Shown piece after piece: positions 62,190-64,000 of a stretch of 64,000 nt of DNA. Positions within the stretch are counted from its first letter, which is position 1. Each line of letters begins with the position of its first letter. Source of the stretch: Streptomyces sp. NBC_01262 (GTDB lineage Bacteria; Actinomycetota; Actinomycetes; Streptomycetales; Streptomycetaceae); contig NZ_CP108462.1 of the NCBI RefSeq assembly GCF_036226365.1, positions 1,302,001 to 1,366,000 of the forward strand, given 5' to 3'. The notes beneath the pieces were generated by a model, which was given only the letters and a program-made list of their open reading frames with translations, did not search any database and had not been told where the DNA came from. A program made the position numbers and the translations under genes.

Positions 62190-62640
62190 CAATGGTCGTA
62201 CGAGGCGGCGATCACGAAAGGACCCCCACCCCTCCCCTCCGGGACACCTCAAACCCCGGACAGCGCAGATTCACCCGGACGAGTGAATCCACGCCGTCCG
62301 GCCGACCGAACATTACCTGCGGTAAATCTGCACATCGCGCATCCGCACGACACCCGGACGGCCGTGCGACGACCCGGAGCCGGCCGCCGCCGGGGTCTTT
62401 GGTCCGGAGTGCCCAAATTCCGCGCCGCGGAGCCGGTCGAGGGATGTGAAGAAAGTGCCAGCAACATGTGGACACAACCCCACACCGGTGAAGCCGCAAA
62501 GTCGGCATCGAATTCGAACAGCGCGTTGGCCAATTGGCCGTCCGAACTGTGAGCGTGCTTTGATCCTGCGCAGTGGCGGAGAGCTCGCCCCCCGAGCGAT
62601 TCGCCACTCGATATCTGTCCTTATGAAGGGAAGCCCCATC
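62190..62640. other. Gene-free promoter region of the peptide locus
   Basis: About 450 bp with no convincing gene. It holds two exact dyads, GATTCAC-N8-GTGAATC (62268-62289) and TTACC-TGC-GGTAA (62313-62325). The sequence becomes AT-richer toward 62500-62620, where the precursor-peptide promoter should lie. Either dyad may bind a regulator of the peptide genes. Confidence 0.4.
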
Positions 62641-62856
62641 ATGAACGTCACCCCCCAGGTTGAGACCCGCGAGATCTCCGACGCCGACCTCGACAACGTC
62701 TCGGGTGGCCTCGTCGGTCAGCTGCTCGGCACCGTGACGGGCACCGTCGACTCGGTCGCCCCGGTCAGCGGCGTCGTCTTCGGCCTCGTCGGCACGGTCG
62801 AGGGTGCCACCGGCATCAACACCTCGGTCGCCACCGGCCTCGTCTCCGGTCTCTGA
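62641..62856 (+). CDS. Double-glycine-leader peptide precursor (bacteriocin/RiPP-like)
   Basis: 71 residues. The leader (1-23) is acidic and ends REISDADLDNVSGG, the classic class II bacteriocin/lanthipeptide leader with a Gly-Gly cleavage site. The 48-residue core starts LVGQLLGTVTGTVD and is rich in Gly, Val, Thr and Ser. It has no Cys, Lys, Arg, His, Trp or Tyr, so no lanthionine or disulfide is possible. The hydrophobic, repeated LVGxxxG and TGxV pattern suggests a membrane-active or self-assembling peptide. It is followed by HlyD-like and C39-transporter genes that would cut and export it. Confidence 0.8.
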   Translation: MNVTPQVETREISDADLDNVSGGLVGQLLGTVTGTVDSVAPVSGVVFGLVGTVEGATGINTSVATGLVSGL

Positions 62857-62866
62857 GACGAATTGC

Positions 62867-62906
62867 GCCGTGGGCCCCGGAGCCGTCCGTTTCCGGGGCC
62901 CACGGC
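62867..62906. terminator. Hairpin between the precursor gene and the export genes
   Basis: Perfect 15-bp stem (62867-62881 and 62892-62906, 10-nt loop), starting 10 bp after the precursor stop. As a partial terminator or 3' stabiliser it would give many more precursor transcripts than exporter transcripts, as is common in bacteriocin operons. Confidence 0.7.
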
Positions 62907-62961
62907 CGCCCTTGCGGCGTTGTGTCCGAATAGCGCAGAATGCAGTCGAGGGAAGAATTCC

Positions 62962-63738
62962 GTGCAGTTTCGCCAAAAGGCCCTCGCCAAGCTGCAATCC
63001 CCCGAAGAACTCGACCTGCCGGTGCGATTCGCGCGCCCGCAGGGCTGGCTCGTGCTGTCCATAACCATTGTGGTCATGGCCGGTGCGAGCTTTTGGGCGT
63101 TCACAGGTTCGATTTCCTCGAAATTGAGCGCGCCCGGAATTCTCACCCACGGGCAGGGCAGTTACGTCCTACAGAGCCCCGTCGCCGGCCAGGTCACCCA
63201 GGTCCTCGCCGAGCAGGGCGAGCAGCTCGCGGCCGACGCGCCGCTGCTCAAGCTGCGTACGCAAACCGGCGCCACCACCGTCGTCCGCACCCTGGCAGCG
63301 GGCCGGGTGACCACGCTGGTGGCCACGATCGGCACGGTCGTCACCACGGGGGCGGATGTGGCGGCCGTCGAGCGCGTCGCCCAGGCCGATGACCCGATCG
63401 TGGCGGTCCTGTACCTGTCGGCCGCGAACGCCGCGTCGGTGCCGCTGGGCGCCACGGTGGATCTGACCGTCGAGTCGGTGGCGGGCAGCCGGTACGGCAG
63501 TCTGCGCGGCCATGCGCAGTCCGTGGGCCCCGCTGCCCAGACGCAGGCGCAGATCGCGGCCTTCCTGGGCGACAGCCAGCTCGCCGAGGATTTCTCCCGG
63601 CAGGGGCGGCCGGTGCCGGTCCTGGTACGGCTGGGCAGCAAGGCGGCGGCCGCCGCGAAGACGATCGGCTCCATGACCCCGGCCACCGGCAGCGTCCGGC
63701 TGGCCGCCCAGCGTCCGATCGATTGGCTGCTCCCGTGA
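62962..63738 (+). CDS. HlyD-like membrane fusion protein for peptide export
   Basis: 258 residues from GTG with a GAGGGAAG site. A short cytoplasmic tail, one membrane segment (about 29-47, [19 protein letters not shown]) and an extracytoplasmic part follow. The latter has a biotinyl-lipoyl-like motif ([20 protein letters not shown]). It resembles the NHLP-type secretion adaptor. A coiled-coil hairpin like that of Gram-negative HlyD is not evident, in keeping with a single-membrane organism. It overlaps the transporter gene by GTGA. Confidence 0.82.
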
Positions 63739-64000
63739 CCGCGCCCGCACCGTCGTCCTCCGGCCGCCGTGCCGCACGCCCGCAGCCGCACCGGCAGCCA
63801 CATCGGCAGCAGCAGCCGCAGCGGCGGTCGAAGCCGAAGGCGCGCAGGCCCCGTACCGTACGCACCCCCACGGTGCTCCAGATGGAGGCCGTGGAGTGCG
63901 GCGCCGCCTCGCTGGCGATGGTGCTCGGCCACTACGGCCGCCATGTCCCCCTGGAGGAGCTGCGGATAGCCTGCGGCGTCTCCCGCGACGGCTCGCGGGC
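63735..64000 (+). CDS. C39-peptidase ABC exporter (PCAT), 5' part only
   Basis: The first 88 codons are visible; the gene runs past the window end. A basic, His/Gln/Pro-rich N-terminal tail ([17 protein letters not shown]) precedes the C39 peptidase domain with catalytic Cys55 in [20 protein letters not shown], then [15 protein letters not shown]. Such transporters cleave after Gly-Gly and export the core peptide using ATP. The GTG overlaps the HlyD-like stop. Catalytic His and Asp and the ATPase lie outside the window. Confidence 0.88.

Follow-up and report, generated by a model that had tools for sequence, protein, structure and literature searches.

A Cys-free double-glycine peptide family of Streptomycetaceae with a dual-ABC exporter and a candidate role at the hyphal surface

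Near the end of the window, i.e. the whole stretch of 64,000 nucleotides analysed here (positions 1302001-1366000 of the 9.74 Mb, single-contig genome of Streptomyces sp. NBC_01262), a small gene with a double-glycine leader stands directly before export genes. Such a layout raises the question of what kind of peptide is exported, whether it is modified, and where it would act.

The precursor and its export genes

A sequence-only reading of the window had described a 71-residue precursor with a double-glycine leader and a 48-residue core free of Cys and basic residues, and all three, the reading frame, the leader and the core, were confirmed, Table 1. The core contains 0 Cys, 0 Lys/Arg and 0 His, has a net charge of -2, and its computed monoisotopic mass in unmodified form is 4468.4 Da. 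An alternative in-frame ATG at 62623, six codons upstream, would make the precursor 77 aa long. However, this ATG adjoins the ribosome-binding sequence GAAGGGAAG and an equivalent upstream ATG is absent in both relatives checked (n=2), so the 71 aa form is the better start. A ribosome-binding sequence like GAAGGGAAG is found ahead of the start codon in most relatives.

Table 1. Features of the peptide operon and its upstream region (window coordinates).
Feature	Position	Strand	Remarks
Word ATCTGCACA	62327..62335	+	~300 bp upstream; recurs in relatives
Operator-like element (TGTGAAGAA, then CG.C, then GTG)	62439..62485	+	model R1, 23.2 bits
Promoter-like element (ATTGG-N18-TGCTTTGATCC in the window)	62525..62575	+	alignment A4
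Ribosome-binding sequence GAAGGGAAG	62625..62633	+	read from sequence
Precursor ORF	62641-62856	+	ATG 62641, stop 62854-62856, 71 aa
Leader, 23 residues ending SGG	62641..62709	+	V(-4), L(-7), I(-12)
Core, 48 residues and stop	62710..62856	+	without Cys, Lys, Arg, His
Compact HlyD-like adaptor, 258 aa	62962..63738	+	HlyD_3 above cut-off
C39 peptidase/ABC transporter, start	63735..64000	+	TIGR03796; runs on to 65999 outside the window
Second ABC transporter, 951 aa	66002-68857, outside the window		TIGR03797

The predicted cleavage site is after G23. According to the available part of PMC6363468, the leader positions -4, -7 and -12 occupy hydrophobic pockets in the LahT structure. The precursor has the Gly-Gly and hydrophobic residues at these three positions, and the exporter has an intact Cys/His/Asp protease, as for a C39 (double-glycine) substrate.

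Scans of the window peptide against Pfam and NCBIfam gave sub-threshold matches only (TigB E 0.39, Ntox14 E 0.067, Glug E 0.83). None of the 26 rows of the family profile A1 scored above a cut-off in the same libraries, the best being FapA (E 0.0058), Lactococcin (E 0.0056), bacteriocin_sig (E 0.026) and L_biotic_typeA (E 0.03). These weak matches are treated as chance or as due to the common leader. A sequence search of the PDB with the peptide found nothing below E 0.09. A TigB-like identity was considered and dropped, because a radical SAM gene was not seen nearby.

The peptide gene opens a four-gene operon, followed by a compact HlyD, a C39 ABC transporter and a second, NHLP-type ABC transporter; the last lies beyond the window edge. 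The proposal of a dedicated exporter is therefore borne out and gains a second transporter. The HlyD-like adaptor obtains 111 bits with TIGR03794, under the cut-off of 156, and a simple hydropathy scan places an N-terminal hydrophobic segment at residues 30-48 and a weaker one at 146-164. Its stop codon shares a GTGA overlap (63735) with the start of the C39 transporter. The latter scores 1017 bits with TIGR03796 (cut-off 853) and carries the Cys/His/Asp boxes, Walker A/B and the signature. The second transporter scores 885 bits with TIGR03797 (cut-off 709); the ATPase motif set is present and the C39 boxes are absent. The three genes resemble the NHLP/Nif11-type export set (TIGR03794, TIGR03796, TIGR03797), with both ABC transporters over the curated cut-offs. 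In contrast to that set, the HlyD is short and below cut-off, and the precursor matches no NHLP/Nif11 model in Pfam or NCBIfam.

A 188 bp stretch with 19-bp perfect terminal inverted repeats (GGCCCTGTCCGGGCGATCA) lies at the window-equivalent positions 68857-69044 (L004 8858-9045) and abuts the stop codon of the second ABC transporter. It looks like a small mobile element. An exact copy is absent from the other 263 loci, and a similar pattern is absent within the window.

The surroundings were scanned in ten ORFs, picked by codon composition rather than taken exhaustively. The two upstream of the operon encode a GntR regulator and an SDR; the eight downstream, spread over ~9 kb, encode three acyl-CoA dehydrogenases, two SDRs, a thiolase, an enoyl-CoA hydratase and a GNAT protein. 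Neither a maturase nor an immunity gene turned up in the operon or in these ten ORFs, and the 105 bp ahead of the HlyD gene leave no room for a further gene. A LanM gene was found neither there nor among the genes that recur beside relatives. The sequence-only reading had seen no modifying enzyme up to position 64000 and had suggested extending the sequence; the extension provides the rest of the C39 transporter and the second ABC transporter, with no maturase among the eight downstream ORFs, and the same holds for the genes recurring beside relatives.

Distribution and composition of the family

The window peptide used as a query matches 22 of the 35 genomes of its own genus, and the profile A1 (26 rows) matches 232 of the 394 Streptomycetaceae genomes, own genome counted in both cases. 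Among 396 genomes drawn across the phylum there are eleven matches, all eleven in Streptomycetaceae. A scan with one genome per species gave 410 relatives, and the best 80 of these belong to Streptomyces, Kitasatospora or Actinacidiphila only. Among plasmid records we found one full relative on a S. chartreusis plasmid, a partial one in another Streptomyces and a weak match in Azospirillum, none of them annotated. The rarity that the earlier reading implied is not supported, because the family is widespread in Streptomycetaceae, and one member, SCO0753 of S. coelicolor, is already in print (PMC6629963).

Peptide and exporter go together. A TIGR03797 exporter over cut-off is present in 231 of the 232 peptide-positive genomes (the exception is G306) vs 19 of the 162 peptide-negative ones. 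Behind the peptide, HlyD and the first ABC transporter are found at all 80 loci of the best 80 of 410 relatives, and a separate place for the second ABC transporter at 79, the remaining locus (L118) being on a 6.1 kb contig; this conservation is biased upward, because just the top-scoring relatives were taken. Among the 28 loci of the own genus, window included, all three exporter genes follow the peptide in 20, two are cut by contig ends (L042, L049), and no exporter was found beside six (L055-L060; at L056 just ~1 kb of downstream sequence was covered). No maturase was recognised by eye in the ORF listings of these six loci. The peptide is thus conserved next to exporters (20/28 and 80/80 loci), contrary to what the sequence-only reading had named as a refutation. 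At L037, L111 and L122 the second ABC transporter is matched in separate or partial stretches and is possibly broken or misassembled.

The composition of the core is a family trait. All cores of the best 80 of 410 relatives lack Cys and Lys/Arg. In the own genus, where 27 of the 28 loci could be parsed (window included, L041 missed), 27 cores are Cys-free, 25 are Lys/Arg-free (L057 and L060 have one such residue each), and the net charge is -1 to -4. Together these make 107 core rows, with two loci in both sets. The mean column identity of the core is 72% across 41 rows (the window and 40 of the best 80), and the cores of the own genus split into variable subfamilies. The peptide family is real, widespread and already noted in S. 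coelicolor; its family-wide definition is new here. It is present in 232 of the 394 sampled Streptomycetaceae genomes and has no assigned function in the open-licence literature searched.

The core pattern and a possible surface role

In 67 distinct window-type cores, pairs of glycines four residues apart occur 244 times vs 90 expected, and pairs at distances 1, 2 and 5 are depleted; since these cores are related, a z-score for the pairs overstates the evidence. The window core itself has five GxxxG pairs vs 1.85 expected (P 0.012), and its hydrophobic moment at 100 degrees is 0.85 vs 0.33 (P 0.008). Its 170-degree moment is not raised (P 0.30), and an amyloid or chaplin-like beta core is therefore not favoured. 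All five groups tested have a raised helical moment in their best 18-residue stretch (P 0.002-0.006, the rows being related and the values uncorrected for multiple tests). In the PVLDT subfamily (5 rows) the helical moment is retained, without a GxxxG excess. The VGVG/VSVSGG group (11 rows, the largest subfamily of the genus) has a glycine excess at i+3 and i+4, and its whole-core helical moment is not raised. The orphans (6 rows) show neither the GxxxG excess nor a raised whole-core helical moment, and their 170-degree moment is raised.

AlphaFold2 run on 41 cores places helices at residues 2-34 and 38-47 with low confidence (mean pLDDT 61.9, pTM 0.25). The window-type pattern, which is new here, fits an uncharged, self-associating helix with a glycine zipper, and the AlphaFold2 model gives it weak support; the sequence-only reading had suggested an uncharged peptide that inserts into membranes or associates with itself. 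Insertion of the core into membranes is something that we only infer.

The apparent counterpart in S. coelicolor has been described. According to the available part of PMC6629963, SCO0753 is a 77-aa Cys-free hydrophobic peptide encoded upstream of SCO0754 (HlyD) and SCO0755-0756 (ABC), and these four genes are conserved in many Streptomyces. The same text reports SCO0753 as the most overexpressed gene (log2 6.3; 8.1 by qRT-PCR vs the double-deletion strain) in a strain with the activated kinase Sco5282-D125G, induced along with cell-envelope genes under the activated two-component system, and almost silent in the null mutant. The activated strain shows dispersed growth, and the turn from pelleted to dispersed mycelium is an industrially important trait. 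The authors propose an altered hyphal surface and regard a SapB-like action of SCO0753 as unlikely for a peptide without Cys. Reduced matB expression is named as an alternative possible cause of the dispersed mycelium, so a role of SCO0753 in dispersion stays a proposal. Strains deleted for the two-component system, in which SCO0753 is almost silent, sediment like the wild type (PMC6629963). Elsewhere, in the accessible parts of the reports, SCO0753 is up in an aor1 mutant (PMC5733086), SCO0756 is up in a strain lacking Ppm1 (PMC5882110), and, in a comparison involving a copper-regulation mutant, SCO0756 is slightly down (-0.8; PMC6414726). Equating Sco5282/5283 with GarS/GarR was considered and is wrong (NarL- vs OmpR-type).

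By layout and description, the window operon appears to correspond to SCO0753-0756: a Cys-free hydrophobic double-glycine peptide directly before HlyD, ABC and ABC. The setting is different. In S. coelicoflavus (L075), which has a matching layout, Pfam identifies the flanking genes as a secreted protease of trypsin type and a Ppx/GppA phosphatase, matching SCO0752 (listed with secreted proteases) and SCO0757 (exopolyphosphatase), whereas the window operon has the SDR and GntR genes upstream and the acyl-CoA dehydrogenases downstream. Among the 80 loci of named genomes, a trypsin-type protease recurs at 60, a SpoIIE/GAF/PAS protein at 56, an MFS-like protein at 31 and a Ppx/GppA phosphatase at 23; the MFS-like group was assigned by reading, and each of the other three by a scan of one member. 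The protease, SpoIIE-type and Ppx-type genes were not found beside the window operon, and we read them as ancestral neighbours. The open-licence literature, searched with part of the gene names, contained neither a functional test of the peptide nor a description of its upstream element, and words from the leader and core were absent from it.

We favour, with a probability of about 0.42, an unmodified self-associating peptide that acts at the hyphal surface. The operon would make and export it without modification. By homology, the C39 domain would bind the leader at V(-4), L(-7) and I(-12) and cut it after Gly-Gly, and the 48-mer would leave through the HlyD/ABC1/ABC2 exporter. The sequence pattern suggests that the core may then fold into an uncharged amphipathic helix, or two of them, with a glycine zipper along one face, and associate with itself or with the membrane. 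From the published regulation in S. coelicolor, the product may act on the producer's own hyphal surface in a surfactant, anti-aggregation or envelope-stress role, and killing of competitors would not be its main role. Several points weigh against this reading: the 162 of 394 Streptomycetaceae genomes without the peptide, reduced matB as another possible cause of dispersion, the wild-type sedimentation of the two-component deletion strains, the uneven GxxxG pattern across subfamilies, the low pLDDT, and a dN/dS that is higher in the core than in the leader.

SapB (RamS) and the chaplins are hydrophobic secreted products at the hyphal surface; SapB is lantibiotic-like and the chaplins are Sec-exported. 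A hydrophobic secreted surface action would be common to them and the window peptide, whereas the type of export or modification differs by description. A wider proposal, which we regard as possible and rather unlikely, is that the family adds to the surface peptides of Streptomyces a third type, which is neither lanthipeptide-like as SapB is nor Sec-exported as the chaplins are: an unmodified uncharged glycine-zipper helix, sent out by dual-ABC C39 export of the type found in azole-RiPP clusters, with precursors that are scattered in some genomes under one dedicated operator, and controlling hyphal cohesion or envelope state.

The strongest competing explanation is an unmodified bacteriocin, in which the exported helix inserts into the membranes of related bacteria in a class IIb or microcin-like manner and immunity comes from the exporter or from elsewhere. 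Class IIb bacteriocins generally have a GG leader and no modification enzyme, with two precursor genes and an immunity gene in one operon, and most class II bacteriocins have basic residues. The GG leader with a C39 exporter is indeed the classical layout, but the window operon has one precursor, no immunity gene and no basic residues in the core. An immunity gene was seen neither in the 105 bp before the HlyD gene nor recurring beside the 80 loci (ORFs of at least 40 aa passing the codon filter). A GxxxG helix would be a likeness to class IIb two-peptide bacteriocins such as plantaricin S, the characterised members of which are all said, in the available part of PMC6382864, to have GxxxG or GxxxG-like motifs; the window core has five pairs (P 0.012), helical periodicity and a low-confidence helix, and the PVLDT subfamily and the orphans show no GxxxG excess. 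Variable core subfamilies within one genus and a pooled dN/dS that is higher in the core (0.53) than in the leader (0.28; 2073 non-independent pairs) also speak for a bacteriocin. Against it stand the conservation of the core across many Streptomyces species (72%, 41 rows) and the induction of the putative orthologue with envelope genes (PMC6629963, which also names SapB and the chaplins). On balance we consider a bacteriocin unlikely, and prefer the peptide acting at the producer's surface.

Upstream elements and related exporters

Window-type operons have two upstream blocks in common, a promoter-like one (A4) and an element with a TGTGAAGAA core (A3). The anchoring promoter word is present in 84 of the 107 upstream regions, and the other 23 are all diverged loci of the own genus. 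The best match to the promoter-like element in the own genome has 38.5 bits, the next 15.3, and the exact pattern occurs once. Its model (R2) matches just two of the 27 genus loci (L034, L036). Further upstream, ATCTGCACA is found in 72 of the 84 regions that had the promoter word, and CTGCAC in 82; ATCTGCACA is possibly a further regulator site.

The operator-like element was modelled from 36 rows of A3 (R1). Its highest-scoring site in the own genome is the one before the operon (23.2 bits), the window row being part of the training set. A second match (5858199, 22.7 bits) was rejected as a promoter site, because it lies inside a long coding frame. R1 was run on 32 held-out loci, 27 with the peptide and five with an exporter and without this peptide. 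A site was found at 25 of the 27 peptide loci, on the coding strand and 155-257 bp before the peptide start, and at none of the five exporter loci (L205, L209, L210, L216 and L218, of which L209 has a window-type exporter). The two peptide loci where R1 found no site are the orphans L057 and L060. Two further matches are located 2.5 kb off, in L035 and L036. Weaker matches (two and six) were inspected as well; most are in coding frames, and one (L230) is intergenic in the wrong orientation.

A refined model trained on most of these sites (R3) gave 12 matches with E <0.08 in eight genomes, all at peptide loci, and again none at L057 and L060. In the S. coelicoflavus genome, no second target of R3 stood out clearly, which weighs against the favoured reading.

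For four of the 25 R1-positive precursors (L055, L056, L058, L059), no exporter was found beside them. Comparison shows that the same operator-like element, which is new here, stands before the operon and, in some genomes, before sister precursor genes elsewhere. The shared element together with precursors apart from the exporter suggests a small candidate regulon.

Strong regulation and a conserved core in Streptomyces could also point to a secreted signal with a partner kinase or receptor as its sensor. GG-leader pheromones of streptococci act as such signals, and pheromones are usually shorter than the 48 hydrophobic residues found here, which are long for this role. Apart from the operon genes, the 28 genus loci most often have as neighbours a LuxR-type AAA regulator (6), then a cyclophilin-type isomerase (5) and then an Rv2632c-like protein (4), with one member of each group scanned. 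The large LuxR-type AAA/TPR regulator immediately upstream of the peptide in six loci (L044 6096-9041, the member scanned, and L045-L049) is possibly a local regulator of that subgroup and agrees with signalling. However, the recurring neighbours include neither a recognisable kinase gene nor one for a membrane receptor, and the SpoIIE/GAF/PAS protein, near 56 of the 80 Streptomyces-type loci, is not beside the window operon. Quorum signals are among the C39-exported GG peptides in the available text of PMC6363468; for this family we consider a signal improbable, and retain the surface peptide as the preferred reading.

The exporter has relatives in other clusters. Of the 19 genomes with the exporter and without the peptide, 17 had their exporter loci examined, and in 13 of these 17 the HlyD is 30-35% identical to that of the window; the identity is 45% at L218, 42% at L219 and 56% at L209, and L208 has close ABC genes without a HlyD match. 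Nine of the 14 listed loci carry a protein of 750-800 aa, and both that were scanned (L210, L216) score as SagD/YcaO azole maturases. SagB-type dehydrogenases were confirmed in both loci scanned (L210, L217). Dual-ABC exporters stand beside YcaO/SagD-type proteins and SagB-type dehydrogenases at L205, L207, L210, L212, L214-L217 and L220, and a search of these loci for a GG precursor found none. Since these proteins adjoin them, the related exporters serve modified azole peptides; unlike those clusters, the window peptide family appears to have an unmodified product.

A modified RiPP with its maturation enzyme encoded elsewhere (a 'type A2 lantipeptide' or a TOMM-like product with dehydrated or oxazoline Ser/Thr made in trans) would agree with these exporter relatives and with two names in the accessible parts of the literature, lantibiotic-like for SCO0753 (PMC6629963) and type A2 lantipeptide for a gene, possibly of this family, in a Peptidase_C39 cluster of another strain (PMC13047742), but we judge it very improbable, as no maturase was seen beside the relatives examined and the 107 parsed core rows contain 0 Cys, therefore no lanthionine or thiazole. 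The class II lanthipeptide label fails, with Cys in 0/27 and 0/80 parsed cores and LanM absent from the genes scanned, and the lantibiotic name of the S. coelicolor version is contradicted by the sequence.

Two other small peptides were seen near related exporters. At L209 (3725-3865, reversed locus), a 46-aa peptide stands ahead of the window-type exporter; its leader (IDDDELDNISGG) is related, its core has just nine residues, among them His and Arg, and the operator-like element was not found there. At L219 (~1922-2161, reversed locus), near a dual-ABC exporter, a small ORF combines a GG-like leader (DEDLEGIAGG) with a short tail.
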